From Roseovarius sp. THAF27 (lineage in GTDB: Bacteria > Pseudomonadota > Alphaproteobacteria > Rhodobacterales > Rhodobacteraceae): a stretch of 64,000 bases of DNA. A model generated the notes under the pieces. It was not told the origin of the DNA. It saw only the letters and a list, made by a program, of their open reading frames with translations, and did no database searches. Shown here piece by piece: positions 21,733 to 28,148 of the stretch. The DNA lies in NCBI RefSeq assembly GCF_009363655.1, contig NZ_CP045393.1, forward strand, positions 2,542,001 through 2,606,000, written 5' to 3'. The stretch's first letter is position 1, and every line of letters starts with the position of its first letter. A program made the position numbers and the translations under genes.

Positions 21733-22221
21733 TCAGCGTTTGCGCAGAAGCTCCACCACCTCGCAGCGCGGGTCGTCGGACTGGAGCACGAAGCGTGTCG
21801 TTTCCTCCCACTCCGCCGCCTCATACTCCGGGAACCACGTGTCGGCGTCCTCGACGGCCAGGTCGACCTCGGTGATCACCAGTCGGTCGGCGCGGGGCAG
21901 AAGTGCGTCGTAGATCCCCGCCCCCCCGATGCCGCAGATATGGGCGTAGCCGGCATCATGCGCAGCGGCGATGGCGCTGTCGATGGAAGGGTGGACATGC
22001 TCAGCGCCCTCGGGCGTGCCGGAGGAGACCACGAGGTTCAGGCGGTTCGGCAGGGGGCGGAAGCGCTCGGGCAGGCTTTCCCACGTGCGGCGGCCCATGA
22101 TGCAGGCGGTGCCGGTGGTCTCGCGCGAAAAGAACTTGAGGTCGGCGGGGATGTGCCACGGGATGCCCCCCTGCCGCCCGATAGCGCGGTTGCGGTCGGT
22201 CGCCACCACAAGCGAGATCAT
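21733..22221 (-). CDS. folA: Dihydrofolate reductase
   Basis: A 162-residue dihydrofolate reductase that regenerates tetrahydrofolate after thymidylate synthesis. The start [15 protein letters not shown] and GGIPWHIPADLKFF hold the substrate and NADPH contacts, GRRTWESLP (43-51) the cofactor loop and GGAGIYDALLP (99-109) the second NADPH loop. Its start overlaps the thyA stop by one base (TGATG), so the genes are translationally coupled. Confidence 0.96.
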   Translation of the reverse strand: MISLVVATDRNRAIGRQGGIPWHIPADLKFFSRETTGTACIMGRRTWESLPERFRPLPNRLNLVVSSGTPEGAEHVHPSIDSAIAAAHDAGYAHICGIGGAGIYDALLPRADRLVITEVDLAVEDADTWFPEYEAAEWEETTRFVLQSDDPRCEVVELLRKR

Positions 22222-23012
22222 CAGACTGCCACCGGGGCAGAAATATGCGGGTCGGGGTCGTAGCCGGTGATCTCGAAATCCTCGAAGCGGAAGTCGAATA
22301 TCGACGTGACGTCCCGGGTGATGCGCAGCGTCGGCAGCGGCTTGGGCGTGCGGGAGAGCTGCAGTTTCACCTGATCCACATGGTTGGAATAGATATGTGC
22401 GTCGCCGAAGCTGTGGACGAAATCGCCGGGTTCGTAGCCGGTGACATGGGCCAGCATGTGCAGCAAGAGCGCGTAGGAGGCGATGTTGAACGGCACGCCC
22501 AGGAACATGTCGGCGGACCGCTGGTAGAGTTGCAGGTGCAGCTTGCCCCCCGCGATGCGCACCTGCCAGAGCGTGTGGCAGGGCGGCAGGGCCATGTCGG
22601 GCACGTCGCCCGGGTTCCACGCCGAGACGATCAGGCGGCGGCTGTCGGGGGTTTCGCGGATCATCTGCATCAGGGTTTCGATCTGGTCGATCTCGCCCAC
22701 CGGCCCCGGCCAGTGGCGCCACTGGTGGCCGTAGACGGGGCCGAGGTCGCCGTCCGCGTCCGCCCATTCATCCCAGATGGAAACGCCGTTTTCCTTCAGG
22801 TACGCGATGTTGGTCTCGCCCGAGAGGAACCACAGAAGCTCGTGGATGATCGAGCGCAGGTGCAGTTTCTTGGTGGTCACCAGCGGAAAGCCGTCGGCCA
22901 TGGCATAGCGCGATTGCAGCCCGAAGGCCGAGATCGTGCCGGTGCCGGTCCGGTCGGTCGAGGGCACGCCATGGGTCATCACATGGGCCAATGCGTCGTG
23001 ATATTGCTTCAT
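22221..23012 (-). CDS. thyA: Thymidylate synthase
   Basis: A 263-residue ThyA-type synthase that makes dTMP from dUMP with methylene-tetrahydrofolate. The catalytic Cys is in LPPCHTLWQ (about 146) and the phosphate-binding Arg in [25 protein letters not shown] and the C-terminal HISAPVAV are usual. Length equals the E. coli type. It is cotranscribed with folA. Confidence 0.97.
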
Positions 23013-23246
23013 CGGGTCTTTCCGCCGTTGGGCATTTGCGGGGCGCGGACAACTAATGCGAGTCGCACCCCACTATATCTTGCGGGGCGGCGCAAACAAT
23101 CCTCCAGATCGGGTGGCGGTTGCGGGGCAACACAGCCTGATTTTCCTGCCACGGCGCATGAAAAAAACTTTGACTTTGCAGGCTTGCGCGCCGACTCTCG
23201 GGCAAAACAATACAAAAACGACCACATATTGAGGGCAGTACTCATC

Positions 23247-24218
23247 ATGAACCGTTTCGTGGCATCACTCGTGCTGCCGGCGTTCCTGCTGGCATGCGGC
23301 GGGGGCAGCAACCCGTTCACCCCCGACCCCGCGGCGCCGGACCCCGGAACCGGCGGGGACGGTGACAACCCGACCGACGCAGGCATCCCGACCGCGCTGG
23401 CCGGGGACCTGACCCGTCTCAATTACAATGCGGCGACGCAGACATTGACGGTCGAGGGGCTGACGCTGGACGGAGGCGACGATCCTCTCGTGTACAGACG
23501 GCGCCCCGGCCTGGATCGGAACGGGTACCAAGCCTATACGTTCCAGGACGACGGGCGCGACCGTCACTATACGATCTACGTCGCAGAAGCCAACAACAAC
23601 TCAGGTGTTCGAGCCGGTACGGGCGCATCGGGAGGAGTGCGCAACCGGTTTTTCGGGGGTGGGTACTACGAGCGGGACGGTGACTTTTCGCCGGCAACGG
23701 GCCAGGTCAGCTATGCGGGTAACTACCTAGGCGTCACGAACCTGTCCGGAAGCGGCGAAGATCTCACGCCCCCTCCGGCCGGTCTGGACCCGGACCTTGT
23801 TCCGACCCAGGCGGCCGAGGTCACCGGGCGCGTGGAGCTTCAGGCAAATTTCGGAGATGACGCTACGGTCGAAGGAAACATCATCGAACGTACGATCGTG
23901 GACGGCGGCACCGCGCTGCCCTCGATCGTCCTGGTCAACACACCGATAAGCTCCGATGGTACCTTCGTCGGTCAGGCCGAATACGAGCAGGGCGATTTTC
24001 CCGGTGAAAACGTGATCGGCCAGAAGATTGGCGATTACGGTGGTATTTTCGGAGGCACGAACGCGTCCGGCGTTGCGGGCGTCATCCACCTGGATGAATT
24101 CGACGGACCGAACAACCCGCTCGGCCTCGAAAACGAAGAGGAATATGGCGTTTTCGTGCTCGACCAATGTGGCCAACCTGTCGAAGACGCCACTGGCTGT
24201 GCCGGCACGAACCCGTAA
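23247..24218 (+). CDS. TbpB-like surface lipoprotein, probable Slam client
   Basis: A 323-residue lipoprotein. The signal peptide MNRFVASLVLPAFLLAC ends in lipobox LLAC (Cys17), followed by a Gly/Pro/Asp-rich linker (GGGSNPFTPDPAAPDPGTGG). The C-terminal part shows SDGTFVGQAEY and GDYGGIFGGTNASGVAG. This resembles the beta-barrel repeat of transferrin-binding protein B and other Slam clients (GTF.G and FxGxxAxxxAG). Two Cys near the C-terminus (DQCGQP, TGCAGT) may pair. The next gene is a Slam-like outer-membrane protein whose start overlaps this one. A ligand cannot be predicted. GAGGG lies 11 bases before the ATG. Confidence 0.78.
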   Translation: MNRFVASLVLPAFLLACGGGSNPFTPDPAAPDPGTGGDGDNPTDAGIPTALAGDLTRLNYNAATQTLTVEGLTLDGGDDPLVYRRRPGLDRNGYQAYTFQDDGRDRHYTIYVAEANNNSGVRAGTGASGGVRNRFFGGGYYERDGDFSPATGQVSYAGNYLGVTNLSGSGEDLTPPPAGLDPDLVPTQAAEVTGRVELQANFGDDATVEGNIIERTIVDGGTALPSIVLVNTPISSDGTFVGQAEYEQGDFPGENVIGQKIGDYGGIFGGTNASGVAGVIHLDEFDGPNNPLGLENEEEYGVFVLDQCGQPVEDATGCAGTNP

Positions 24219-25584
24219 CGCACGCGCCACGGCCGCGTTTGCGCTGATCGCGGCGCTGTCGGCCTGGGGTCTTTCGGCCCCGGCCGAAGACGGCGTTGAG
24301 ATGACCCTGCCCCAGGCGCAGGCGCTGGCGGTGCAGGCGATCAAGCAAGACCGCCCGAAGCTGGCCTATCAGCTGAGCGAAGGTCTGCTCAACGTCAACC
24401 CGCGCGACGGGCAGGCGCATTACACGCAGGCGCTGGCATTCGCGCAGGTCAAGGCCTACGGGTTTGGCCGCAAGTCCGCGCGCAAGGCGTTCAACACCGC
24501 CCAGACAGAGGTGCAGAAATACGAGGCCGCGCAGCTGGCCTCGCAGATGGCCTATGCCGACGACCGGCTGACCTTGTCGCAGTTCTGGCTGCGCCGCGCG
24601 GTGCAACACGCGCCGACCGAAGACGTGCGCCAGGAGTCGATCAAGGCGTTCCGCACCGTGCGCGCGCACAACCCGCTGAATTTCAACCTGAAATTCTCGA
24701 TCTCGCCGTCCGACAACGTCAACAATGGATCCAACAGCCCCTACAACATCATCGACGGCGTGCCGGTGGTGGGCGTGCTGTCGCCCAGCGCGCAGGCGAT
24801 CGACGGGATCATTGCCACCACCGATCTGCAGGGCAGCTATCGCATCGCCTACGGCGAGCGGTACATGACGCGGCTGACCGGGCGGGCCTATACGCGGCAG
24901 GTGACGTTCAACGATGCCGTGCCGGGCTTGAGCGGGTCGGACATTTCGTCCTCGCGGTTGCAGGTCGGGGTGAACCATCTGGCGGTCGACGGATCCAAGC
25001 GCGGCCAGTGGGAATTCGACCTGACCGGCGGGCGCGTCTGGTACGGCGACAGCCCGCTTTACGATTTCGCGCGGCTGGGGGTCGAACGGCACAATCGCCT
25101 TGGCGAGAACACGCGCCTCGGCTTTGGCGGGGCGGTCGAGTTCCAGGAAGACGAGACCTGGCCCTATAACGACGCCATGCAATACGAAGGCTTCGCGCAG
25201 CTGAGCTACAGGCTGGCGAATGGTGCGCGGATCGGCGGATACCTGAACTATCGCACCACCGAAACGGACGGGGTGAACCGCGCGCGCGACCAGTGGACCG
25301 GGATCGTCAGCTACACGATGGGGCGCGAGATCGGGCCGGCTCTCATCAGCTTTCAGCTGGGCCACAGCCTTGTCGAGTACGACAAGTACCGCATCATCGG
25401 CCCCGTCCCCGGCGGGCGCAGCGACAACAGCACCTTCGGCGGCGTCACGGCGACCTTCCAGGACTGGAGCTATCTGGGCTTCGTGCCCACCGTGTCGGTG
25501 AATACCGAGGCGACGGATTCCAACATCAGCCGGTTCGACGTGGACGAAACCTCGGTCAGTTTCGGCATCCGCTCGGAATTCTGA
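24199..25584 (+). CDS. Slam-like outer-membrane protein (surface lipoprotein assembly modifier)
   Basis: A protein of about 461 residues. From the GTG at 24199 the N-terminus is a signal peptide (TAAFALIAALSAWGLSAPA). An alternative ATG at 24145 has AGAGGA upstream and would add 18 residues. Residues about 35-150 are helical and TPR-like (ALAVQAIKQDRPKLAYQLSE). From about 160 on the sequence alternates like an outer-membrane barrel (LKFSISPSDNVNNGS to VSFGIRSEF with a terminal Phe). This order, TPR then a barrel of about 300 residues, is that of Slam proteins (DUF560), which move lipoproteins to the cell surface. It overlaps the lipoprotein gene, which suggests coupled expression. Confidence 0.78.
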   Translation: MPARTRNARATAAFALIAALSAWGLSAPAEDGVEMTLPQAQALAVQAIKQDRPKLAYQLSEGLLNVNPRDGQAHYTQALAFAQVKAYGFGRKSARKAFNTAQTEVQKYEAAQLASQMAYADDRLTLSQFWLRRAVQHAPTEDVRQESIKAFRTVRAHNPLNFNLKFSISPSDNVNNGSNSPYNIIDGVPVVGVLSPSAQAIDGIIATTDLQGSYRIAYGERYMTRLTGRAYTRQVTFNDAVPGLSGSDISSSRLQVGVNHLAVDGSKRGQWEFDLTGGRVWYGDSPLYDFARLGVERHNRLGENTRLGFGGAVEFQEDETWPYNDAMQYEGFAQLSYRLANGARIGGYLNYRTTETDGVNRARDQWTGIVSYTMGREIGPALISFQLGHSLVEYDKYRIIGPVPGGRSDNSTFGGVTATFQDWSYLGFVPTVSVNTEATDSNISRFDVDETSVSFGIRSEF

Positions 25585-25664: not shown

Positions 25665-26093
25665 ATGGCGCTGAAATACCTGCACACGATGGTCCGGGTG
25701 AAGGACCTGGAAAAATCCATGGCCTTCTACGAACTCTTGGGCCTGAAGGAGACCCGGCGCATGGACAGCGACGAGGGCCGCTTTTCGCTGATCTTCATGG
25801 CGCCGCCGGGACAGGAGGAATGCCCGGTCGAGCTGACCTGGAACTGGGACGGCGACGACGATCTGCCCGATGACAGCCGGCATTTCGGGCATTTGGCCTA
25901 TTCGGTCGATAACATCTACGACATGTGCAAGCACCTGCAGGACAACGGCGTGACAATCAACCGTCCGCCCCGCGACGGGCGCATGGCCTTCGTGCGCAGC
26001 CCCGACAACATCTCGGTGGAATTGCTGCAAGCGGGCGACGCGCTGGAGCCGGCAGAGCCCTGGGCCAGTATGGAAAGCACCGGGCACTGGTGA
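25665..26093 (+). CDS. gloA: Lactoylglutathione lyase (glyoxalase I)
   Basis: A 142-residue VOC-fold enzyme that converts methylglyoxal-glutathione hemithioacetal to lactoylglutathione. Metal ligands fit His7 (YLHTMVRV), Glu (CPVELTWN), His (HFGHLAY) and Glu (ISVELLQ). Length is typical of the short bacterial form. Its stop overlaps the next start (TGATG), so it heads a coupled operon with three exported proteins. Confidence 0.92.
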   Translation: MALKYLHTMVRVKDLEKSMAFYELLGLKETRRMDSDEGRFSLIFMAPPGQEECPVELTWNWDGDDDLPDDSRHFGHLAYSVDNIYDMCKHLQDNGVTINRPPRDGRMAFVRSPDNISVELLQAGDALEPAEPWASMESTGHW

Positions 26094-26707
26094 TGGGTCT
26101 GCACCGTCTTCCGCTGATCGCGGTGGCGGTGCTGGCCGCCCCTGCCCCGGCGCTGGCCGACGCGCTGGCCGAGGCGGCAGCGAAGCAAGTGGGCGTGACG
26201 GTGATCTACGATCCGTCCTATGTGGGGCTGGACTTTCCCGGCGGCGACGTGCCGCGCGACCGGGGCGTGTGCACCGACGTGGTGATCCGGGCCTTGCGCG
26301 CTGCGCACGGGATCGACCTGCAACTGGCGGTGAACCGCGACATGAAGGCCGATTTCGCCGCCTACCCCGCCCTCTGGGGCCTTTCCACGACCGACCGCAA
26401 CATCGACCACCGGCGGGTGCCGAACCTGGAAACCCTGCTGCGCCGGATCGGCGCGGCGGAGGGTCCGAGCGACGACCCGGACGATTTCGCGCCGGGCGAT
26501 ATCGTCAGCTGGCGGTTGGCCGGGTCGGGCCTGCCGCATATCGGGATCGTGGCCGAGACGCGCAGTGCCGATGGCGCGCGGCCGCTGGTGACGCACAACA
26601 TCGGCTGGGGCACCCGGACCGAGGACATTCTGTTTGACCATGACATGGTGCTGCGCGCGCGGTTGGATGAAGCCGCGCGCGTGCGCCTGCGGGCGTTGAC
26701 GCAATGA
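26093..26707 (+). CDS. DUF1287 periplasmic protein
   Basis: A 204-residue exported protein with signal peptide (LPLIAVAVLAAPAPALAD). The DUF1287 domain fills the rest: GVCTDVVIRALR holds a conserved Cys, and FAPGDIVSWRL and GLPHIGIVAE hold a His, an arrangement like NlpC/P60-type papain-fold enzymes. A hydrolase role in the envelope is possible but unproven. It starts within the gloA stop codon and its own stop overlaps the next ATG. Confidence 0.85.
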   Translation: MGLHRLPLIAVAVLAAPAPALADALAEAAAKQVGVTVIYDPSYVGLDFPGGDVPRDRGVCTDVVIRALRAAHGIDLQLAVNRDMKADFAAYPALWGLSTTDRNIDHRRVPNLETLLRRIGAAEGPSDDPDDFAPGDIVSWRLAGSGLPHIGIVAETRSADGARPLVTHNIGWGTRTEDILFDHDMVLRARLDEAARVRLRALTQ

Positions 26708-27408
26708 GGGTGTGGCGCGTCCTGGCCCTTGCGCTCTTGGCGCTGATGCCGCTCAGGGCGGGGGCCGAGGGGTGCCGGCTGGCGCTGGTGCTGGCGGTCG
26801 ACGTGTCGTCGTCGGTGGACGCGGCCGAGTACGATCTGCAACGGGTCGGCCTGGCCGCGGCCCTCGATGCCGAGGAGGTGCGCCACGCGATCCTGCGGGG
26901 CGCACCGGGGCACGTGGCCCTGGCGGTCTACGAATGGTCCGGGTTCTACCAGCACAAGCTGCAACTGGACTGGACGGTGCTGGACGGCCCCGGCGCGATC
27001 GATGCAGCGGTTGAGACCCTGCTGAAGATGCGCCGCAGCCATGACGAGTTTCCCACCTCGATGGGGCCGGCGCTGGGGTACGGCGCAAGCCTGTTGCAAA
27101 ACGGGCCGGTCTGCGAGCGGCGGGTGATCGACGTGTCGGGCGACGGGGTGAACAACTATCGCTATGGCCCGCGCGAGGCCTACCGGCATTTCCCGATGCA
27201 GAACGTCACGGTGAACGGGCTGGTGGTGCTGGGCGAGGACCCCAGCGTGCTGACCTGGTACGGGGCCGAGGTGCTGCACGGACCGGGGGCGTTTCTGGTG
27301 GTGGCCAACGGGTTCGACGAGTTCACCGAGGCGATGACCCGCAAACTTTACCGTGAAATCAACGATATCATCCTGGGCAGCGTGACGCGGCCCGGACCGC
27401 ACGGATGA
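26704..27408 (+). CDS. DUF1194 protein, VWA-like (first copy)
   Basis: A 234-residue exported protein of the DUF1194 family. After the signal peptide (VLALALLALMPLRAGA) comes a MIDAS-type motif DVSSSVD (about 33-39), as in von Willebrand factor A domains, and later VIDVSGDGVNNYR. Two cysteines flank the domain (EGCRLAL, PVCERRV). A role in metal-dependent protein binding in the periplasm is inferred from the fold. It overlaps both neighbours by four bases (ATGA). Confidence 0.88.
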   Translation: MRVWRVLALALLALMPLRAGAEGCRLALVLAVDVSSSVDAAEYDLQRVGLAAALDAEEVRHAILRGAPGHVALAVYEWSGFYQHKLQLDWTVLDGPGAIDAAVETLLKMRRSHDEFPTSMGPALGYGASLLQNGPVCERRVIDVSGDGVNNYRYGPREAYRHFPMQNVTVNGLVVLGEDPSVLTWYGAEVLHGPGAFLVVANGFDEFTEAMTRKLYREINDIILGSVTRPGPHG

Positions 27409-28148
27409 GGTTGCGGGCGCTGGTGCTGGCCAGTGCCGCGCTGTGGCCGGGGCTGGGCCAAGCCGAGTGCCGGCAGGCGCTGGCGCTGGGAATGGACGTG
27501 TCGGGATCGGTCGATGCGGATGAGTACCGGCTGCAAACCGACGGGCTGGCCGCGGCGCTGCTGGCGCCGGAGGTGCAGGAGGCGTTCCTTGCGGTCCCCG
27601 AGGCCTCTGTGCGGCTGATGATCTACGAGTGGAGCGGCGTGCGGGACCAGCGCGTGCTGCTGGACTGGACCGAGATCGACGGCGCGGCGCGTCTGGCCGA
27701 GGTCGCTGCCCGCCTGCGCGCGACGCAGAAGGCCAAGGGCGACGATCCCACCACGGCGATCAGCGCGGCGGTCCTGTTCGGGGTGGCGGCGCTGAACCGG
27801 CAGGCCGGGTGCCTGCGCCGGACGCTGGACATCTCGGGCGACGGGCCGGCCAATATCGGGCTGCACCCGCGCGATCTGACCGAGGGTGATCTTGGCGACG
27901 TGACCGTCAACGGGCTGGTGATCGGGCCGGAATCGCGGTCGAACACGTCGAAGAACCTGCATAACGTTAAATCTCTGGAAGGCTATTTCCGCGCCTTCGT
28001 CCTGCACGGGCCCGGCGCCTTTGCCGAGACCGCGCGGGACCACGCGGATTTCGCCGCCGCCATGCGCCGCAAGCTGGTGCGCGAGCTGCAACTGCCGAAC
28101 CTGTCCCGGCTCGTGCCGCCGCAGCCCGCGGGCCTGCGCCTGCCTTGA
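27405..28148 (+). CDS. DUF1194 protein, VWA-like (second copy)
   Basis: A 247-residue paralogue of the preceding protein, also with a signal peptide (LVLASAALWPGLGQA), a MIDAS motif DVSGSVD, IYEWSG, LDISGDGPANIG and FVLHGPGAF in the same order. The pair therefore arose by tandem duplication. It is longer after the MIDAS half (insert RSNTSKNLHNVKSLEGYF). It starts in the stop of the first copy and ends the operon. Confidence 0.88.
   Translation: MRLRALVLASAALWPGLGQAECRQALALGMDVSGSVDADEYRLQTDGLAAALLAPEVQEAFLAVPEASVRLMIYEWSGVRDQRVLLDWTEIDGAARLAEVAARLRATQKAKGDDPTTAISAAVLFGVAALNRQAGCLRRTLDISGDGPANIGLHPRDLTEGDLGDVTVNGLVIGPESRSNTSKNLHNVKSLEGYFRAFVLHGPGAFAETARDHADFAAAMRRKLVRELQLPNLSRLVPPQPAGLRLP

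Follow-up and report, generated by a model that had tools for sequence, protein, structure and literature searches.

The window, by which we mean the whole stretch of 64,000 nucleotides analysed here, carries on its forward strand a gene for a predicted surface lipoprotein (P0002, the client) that overlaps the gene for a protein assigned through family profiles to Slam/DUF560 (P0001, the Slam). The pair and its neighbours are laid out as follows:

21733 to 22209, minus strand: folA (dihydrofolate reductase), neighbour; PF00186.
22221 to 23012, minus strand: thyA, neighbour and left border of the proposed cassette; PF00303.
23247 to 24218, plus strand: client, predicted surface lipoprotein P0002, 323 aa; ATG at 23247, stop codon ending at 24218.
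23247 to 23318, plus strand: client signal peptide, lipobox (Cys17) and CGGGSNPF; its counterpart remains with the flank in the G001/G010 comparison.
23385 to 23678, plus strand: client N-terminal 'handle' region, residues about 47–144, putative ligand-binding part; probable boundaries and role, from client alignment A1.
23814 to 24164, plus strand: predicted client TbpB/fHbp-type barrel, residues about 190–306; from the comparison of profile A1 with the PDB, strand count by analogy.
24145 to 25584, plus strand: Slam/DUF560 (T11SS) outer-membrane translocon P0001, 479 aa, overlapping the client; from family profiles.
24301 to 24672, plus strand: predicted Slam TPR-like domain, residues about 53–176; from TPR matches of relatives and the comparison of the TPR part with the DUF560 profile.
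24673 to 25581, plus strand: predicted Slam C-terminal membrane barrel, residues about 177–479; from the comparison of the barrel part with the DUF560 profile.
25665 to 26093, plus strand: gloA-like glyoxalase, outside the pair, right border of the proposed cassette; PF00903.
26704 to 27408 and 27405 to 28148, plus strand: two DUF1194 genes, neighbours; PF06707.

Counting the Slam from the ATG at 24145, the two frames overlap by 74 bp; the overlap would be 50 or 20 bp if the true start were the GTG at 24169 or 24199. The client begins with a signal peptide, its lipobox and the stretch CGGGSNPF; a linker of variable sequence leads from there to an N-terminal domain, and glycine-rich barrel motifs mark the C-terminal region. 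Its lipobox (LLA-C, residues 14–17) was assigned by pattern only; L14 and C17 are nearly invariant in client alignment A1. In the Slam, a signal peptide, recognized by eye, is followed by a TPR-like region and then by a barrel region that takes up about 300 residues at the C terminus. A lipoprotein frame overlapping that of a TPR-plus-barrel protein with a signal peptide had been described in the sequence-only reading of this DNA and was confirmed, and the client motifs quoted there (SDGTFVGQAEY and GDYGGIFGG..ASGVAG) are present. The genome of the window holds one match for the Slam profile and one for the client profile. The client frame is also open far upstream, antisense through thyA (a 657-aa ORF, 22245–24218), and at least the relative L112 has a comparably long frame (711 aa). 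Two client cysteines, Cys308 and Cys318 (window 24168–24200), are conserved in at least 90% of first-set clients; they sit past the last expected barrel strand and could possibly form a disulfide.

For assignment of P0001, family profiles were used in addition to the single sequence. On its own, P0001 reached 15.5 bits against SlipAM (PF04575; cut-off 22), and a search of the window genome with the SlipAM model alone gave no match anywhere. P0001 has at least 194 relatives at E ≤ 0.001; 33 of 52 rows of the Slam family, P0001 not among them, matched SlipAM at E ≤ 0.01 (best 1.9e-12). The DUF560 reference consisted of 30 proteins that PF04575 had picked out in genomes of other families than Rhodobacteraceae. 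In profile–profile comparison the Slam family profile aligned with this reference over 411 columns (probability 99.9, E 9e-35). Its barrel part alone gave a probability of 99.7 (E 6e-26) and its TPR part one of 92.6 (E 5e-7); a profile of only those 26 rows that lie nearest to P0001 reached E 6e-31. TPR_19 was matched by 9 and TPR_16 by 8 of the 52 rows, with no TPR match in P0001 alone.

It could be argued that P0001 is another TPR-barrel secretin, of the BcsC or PgaA type, and resembles Slam on the surface only. PDB searches with the Slam produced no convincing barrel match, the profile search giving mainly TPR proteins and no Slam, and weak one-row matches to Porin_4, Autotransporter, ShlB, BBP2_2 and DUF2860 were recorded. 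A control was built for BcsC from nine proteins, each cut to its C-terminal 480 residues; the Slam profile aligned with DUF560 through both TPR and barrel but not with this control (probability 1.0; barrel part 1.1), and no BcsC or PgaA family occurred among the Pfam matches of the 52 Slam rows. Because hhalign E-values are rough for a single comparison, the contrast between DUF560 and BcsC is what counts here, the DUF560 reference set itself weakly resembling BcsC (probability 68). With BcsC as the one secretin control, a secretin of either type is scarcely credible. A better match of P0001 to some other TPR-barrel family had been named beforehand as the finding that would speak against a Slam, and none was found. 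Judged by family profiles, P0001 is a member of Slam/DUF560 (type 11 secretion), and the profile tests of the family alignments support the Slam-type pair that had been proposed.

P0002 has at least 305 relatives at E ≤ 0.001, the closest named one among the matches listed coming from Roseovarius atlanticus (95%). NCBI or UniRef names exist for 20 of 120 listed relatives, and in 17 cases the name is 'thymidylate synthase', which may have been taken over from the neighbouring gene; none of 52 client rows matched thymidylate synthase models. Alone, P0002 matched a single family, slam_lipo, at 21.1 bits (cut-off 80). At E ≤ 0.01, slam_lipo was matched by 40 of the 52 client rows, TbpB_B_D by 24 and FHBP_C by 3. 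The only PDB matches of client profile A1 were 1ys5 (E 0.0026, profile positions 197–286), an entry labelled 'lipoprotein' that we take to be factor H binding protein (fHbp), and hemophilin (8glo, E 0.26). Out of 26 TbpB_B_D proteins extracted from other families, the eight with a single barrel were compared with the client profile; the alignment was modest and lay in the C-terminal region (probability 58, E 1e-4), and unrelated controls gave probabilities of 1.0 and 0.1. As these family profiles indicate, P0002 probably carries a diverged TbpB/fHbp-type barrel. A lipoprotein devoid of a C-terminal barrel had also been named beforehand as speaking against the pair; the family profiles instead point to such a barrel, in line with the earlier claim, and P0002 by itself gave no TbpB_B_D match. 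In another Rhodobacteraceae genome, G382 (L084, L103), 11 TbpB_B_D matches are scattered about, and the SlipAM model, which performs poorly in Rhodobacteraceae, matched once.

The linkage of the two genes was then surveyed in 248 Rhodobacteraceae genomes, one per genus, of which 139 had Slam profile matches and 102 client profile matches. Counting was confined to Slam matches that scored 200 bits or more; there were 119 of these, in 115 genomes, including at least two with an internal stop. A client match, weak and partial matches up to E 1e-3 included, stood directly upstream, on the same strand and within 1.2 kb, of 91 of these 119 Slams, and of 47 of the 51 scoring at least 350 bits. Both proteins have many relatives and the client so regularly precedes the Slam that the pair is more than a chance neighbourhood. 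Of the 28 Slams without a client after this first pass, 27 were inspected, the remaining one lying at a contig start; 17 had a lipoprotein directly upstream (one lipobox read by eye), and two upstream candidates, including a short lipoprotein-like ORF in L175, were dropped by hand. Fifteen of these 17 second-set clients matched the client profile individually, with E-values no worse than 4.5e-8, L169 and L178 having no match of their own to the first-set profile, and the joint profile of the second set aligned with the first at probability 99.8 (E 1e-28). Against the eight single-barrel TbpB_B_D proteins the second set reached a probability of 0.6; two of its members matched FHBP_C and one slam_lipo. 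Its profile had no relevant PDB match, so that the barrel of these clients rests on their alignment with the first set. After inspection, a lipoprotein stood upstream of 108 of the 119 Slams, 8 had none and 3, at contig ends, were not evaluable. One genome (G202:C9) holds two Slam matches of similar score, with a client upstream of only one.

In 41 of 43 other genomes, mostly the best-scoring ones, gloA lies directly 3′ of the Slam, and a gloA match was present in 57 of 60 genomes of the window's genus. The genus survey covered 43 loci around gloA, the window included, from these 57 genomes. Slam and client were both present at 17 loci and both missing at 26, and one was never found alone; beyond the genus the pairing is looser, as the 8 Slams with no upstream lipoprotein show. 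In the genus survey, 14 of the gloA-bearing genomes were left out, and the ratio of 17 to 26 is therefore not a frequency. Because the loci were found through gloA, loss of gloA together with the pair could not show at the site. A whole-genome search with both profiles found neither Slam nor client elsewhere for 16 of the 26 pair-less genomes; among the other 10, five had no match to the window Slam. At the 26 empty sites, the gap from the thymidylate synthase gene to gloA measures about 123–470 bp. A client relict was sought at all of them and found at one, in G587, where the client start is kept from signal peptide to NPF (E 7e-19); 25 had none. At least one empty site therefore arose by loss.

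As for the thymidylate synthase gene, thyA was found at 15 and the unrelated thyX at 28 of the 43 genus loci, never both, so that at this locus one thymidylate synthase is exchanged for another that is not its homologue. In the window, thyA is accompanied by folA. A DUF1287 gene, between gloA and DUF1194 (window 26105–26707), was present at 8 of the 43 loci. A scan with TonB-dependent receptor models matched none of ten genes surrounding the pair in the window, nor any of four large neighbours in three relatives.

The common order of thymidylate synthase, pair and gloA could hint, through the neighbours thyA/thyX and gloA, at a role of the pair in one-carbon/folate metabolism or in nickel uptake. 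However, the neighbours occur together without the pair at the 26 empty sites, gloA is matched in genus genomes at the frequency given above, and thyA rather than thyX is equally common at pair-less (9 of 26) and pair-bearing loci (6 of 17; p 1.0), which makes a metabolic role of this kind very unlikely. A second proposal is that the Rhodobacteraceae Slam changed function, with DUF1194 as its real cargo, a possibility raised in PMC12282271, and the upstream lipoprotein as a relic. DUF1194 is indeed present at 17 of 17 pair-bearing genus loci and, according to that paper, at 102 of 145 published cluster 3 loci, and the eight Slams with no lipoprotein directly upstream would fit. Yet it is also retained at 22 of the 26 empty sites (Fisher p 0.14), lipoprotein and Slam are never apart in the 43 genus loci, and the two proteins co-diverge, with a lipoprotein upstream of nearly all Slams in the family survey. 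We consider DUF1194 highly unlikely as the true cargo. The genes for thyA/thyX, gloA and DUF1194 all occur without the Slam and its client, and are probably bystanders.

The history of the pair was followed in trees of the Slam and its flanks. The Slam tree had 45 members, 13 of them from the window's genus; these formed two groups, of 9 and 4, with a strongly supported split and other genera on both sides of it; holding the genus Slams together was rejected (AU p 8e-7). The gloA tree, which is short and weakly supported, also lacked the genus as a single group (3 changes, 1 forced). Mapping the state of the site (none, type I or type II) onto the tree of the flanking aminotransferase (40 loci, three of the 43 being left out) takes 8 changes. 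The position of the borders could be read from the species pair G001 and G010, which share 98% identity in the aminotransferase and 94% in gloA, with 29% in the Slam and 31% in the client. Their left flank DNA is 91% identical over 1.2 kb, up to just past the client NPF codons, and their right flank 95% over 8.2 kb, from about 20–25 bp past the Slam stop; borders between G001 and G020 agree with these within a few bases. Over the 17 pair-bearing loci, identities of Slam and client were correlated at r 0.94 and those of gloA and aminotransferase at 0.74, with values of 0.21 for Slam and gloA, 0.35 for Slam and aminotransferase, and 0.25 for client and aminotransferase. Much of the Slam–client value is probably driven by the split into two Slam types.

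NPF was present in all 17 genus clients, with four to seven residues from the lipidated cysteine to its N. By a strict count, PF occurred within nine letters in 38 of the 52 clients of the first set and in 11 of the 17 of the second. In a control, N-P-F occurred in 16 of 18 client lipobox ORFs vs 0 of 8 others; this control is small and blind to relatedness, which makes NPF specificity a lead only. The sharing of NPF may in part be due to recombination that keeps the client 5′ end.

Taken together, the pair is with high probability, on sequence grounds, a Slam (type 11 secretion, DUF560) translocon and its own single-barrel lipoprotein client. Against this stand the scores of P0001 and P0002, which singly fall below curated cut-offs, and the eight Slams lacking an upstream lipoprotein. 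Translocation by Slam has been shown for TbpB (PMC9090332, in the text available). For the present pair, homology, gene order and co-inheritance suggest the same activity. By analogy with characterised Slams, the client would cross the inner membrane by Sec, be lipidated at Cys17 and then be carried to the outer membrane, where the Slam TPR domain would receive it and the Slam barrel pass it outwards; its C-terminal barrel would fold outside the cell, and the N-terminal handle, displayed on the lipid anchor, would bind a putative ligand.

In the window's genus, Slam and client appear to have been lost and replaced together, as one exchangeable cassette at a fixed site between the thymidylate synthase gene and gloA. 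We lean slightly towards a fuller reading, in which the two genes would form a surface-display cassette that is deleted or replaced as one block by recombination in the conserved thymidylate synthase and gloA sides. Client promoter, signal peptide, lipobox and NPF would then stay, and the displayed domain and its matched exporter would be swapped. Marine bacteria would then have at this site a locus for surface diversity, on which phages or grazers perhaps exert selection.

Slams in free-living bacteria have been noted before (PMC5449769 and PMC8406197, in the texts available). A marine cluster 3 T11SS locus of Rhodobacteraceae/Roseobacteraceae from 11 strains was described in 2025 (PMC12282271), with thymidylate synthase, an SPII lipoprotein, the T11SS protein, lactoylglutathione lyase (gloA) and DUF1194 in the text available. 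An environmental Slam is therefore not new, and the surprise that the sequence-only reading attached to an alphaproteobacterial one is out of date. According to the available text of PMC12282271, a predicted eight-stranded barrel lipoprotein is found in 10 of the 11 loci, one locus having apparently lost its cargo. For marine cluster 3 as a whole, the same text gives barrel cargo as rare (31 ORFs, 0.21 per T11SS protein), with TbpBBD in 8 of 145 loci; it suggests that rare co-location, divergence below threshold or cargo loss could account for this, and names DUF1194, nickel, folate and cobalamin as leads.

Compared with the published 0.21 cargo per Slam, the presence of an upstream lipoprotein at 108 of 119 Rhodobacteraceae Slams is new, and the low published number is likely due to divergence of the clients. 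Also new are the joint presence or absence of the pair across the 43 genus loci, with DUF1194 remaining at 22 of the 26 empty ones, the occupation of one chromosomal site by two Slam types that differ deeply, and the name 'thymidylate synthase' on 17 of 20 named client relatives. The available text of PMC12282271 was not found to mention that the pair is lost or swapped as one unit, and no account of cassette swapping of a Slam–client pair was found in the open-access literature, subscription papers and supplements aside. The portion of PMC12282271 available does not decide if barrel cargo persists for marine T11SS proteins; our counts suggest that a lipoprotein client is usually there, diverged and often misnamed. 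If the cassette reading is true, the site offers natural matched and mismatched exporter–client pairs, and it would be directly testable what a Slam recognises and what these lipoproteins bind in the sea.

Among known systems, Neisseria Slam1/TbpB, as far as the sources available describe it, resembles the predicted window pair in having a TPR plus DUF560 barrel protein beside a lipoprotein with a TbpB-type barrel. It differs in that TbpB has two lobes, whereas the window client has one predicted barrel; in addition, no TonB receptor was among the window neighbours scanned, and the window Slam falls below the DUF560 model cut-off. The entries taken as fHbp (1ys5) and hemophilin (8glo) match the client profile through the barrel region, weakly and in that region only. 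Hemophilin is soluble and not lipidated (PMC8406197, in the text available). The marine cluster 3 T11SS locus, in its published description as available, has its gene set and synteny (thymidylate synthase, gloA, DUF1194) in common with the window, from which it differs in carrying thyX where the window carries thyA and folA.
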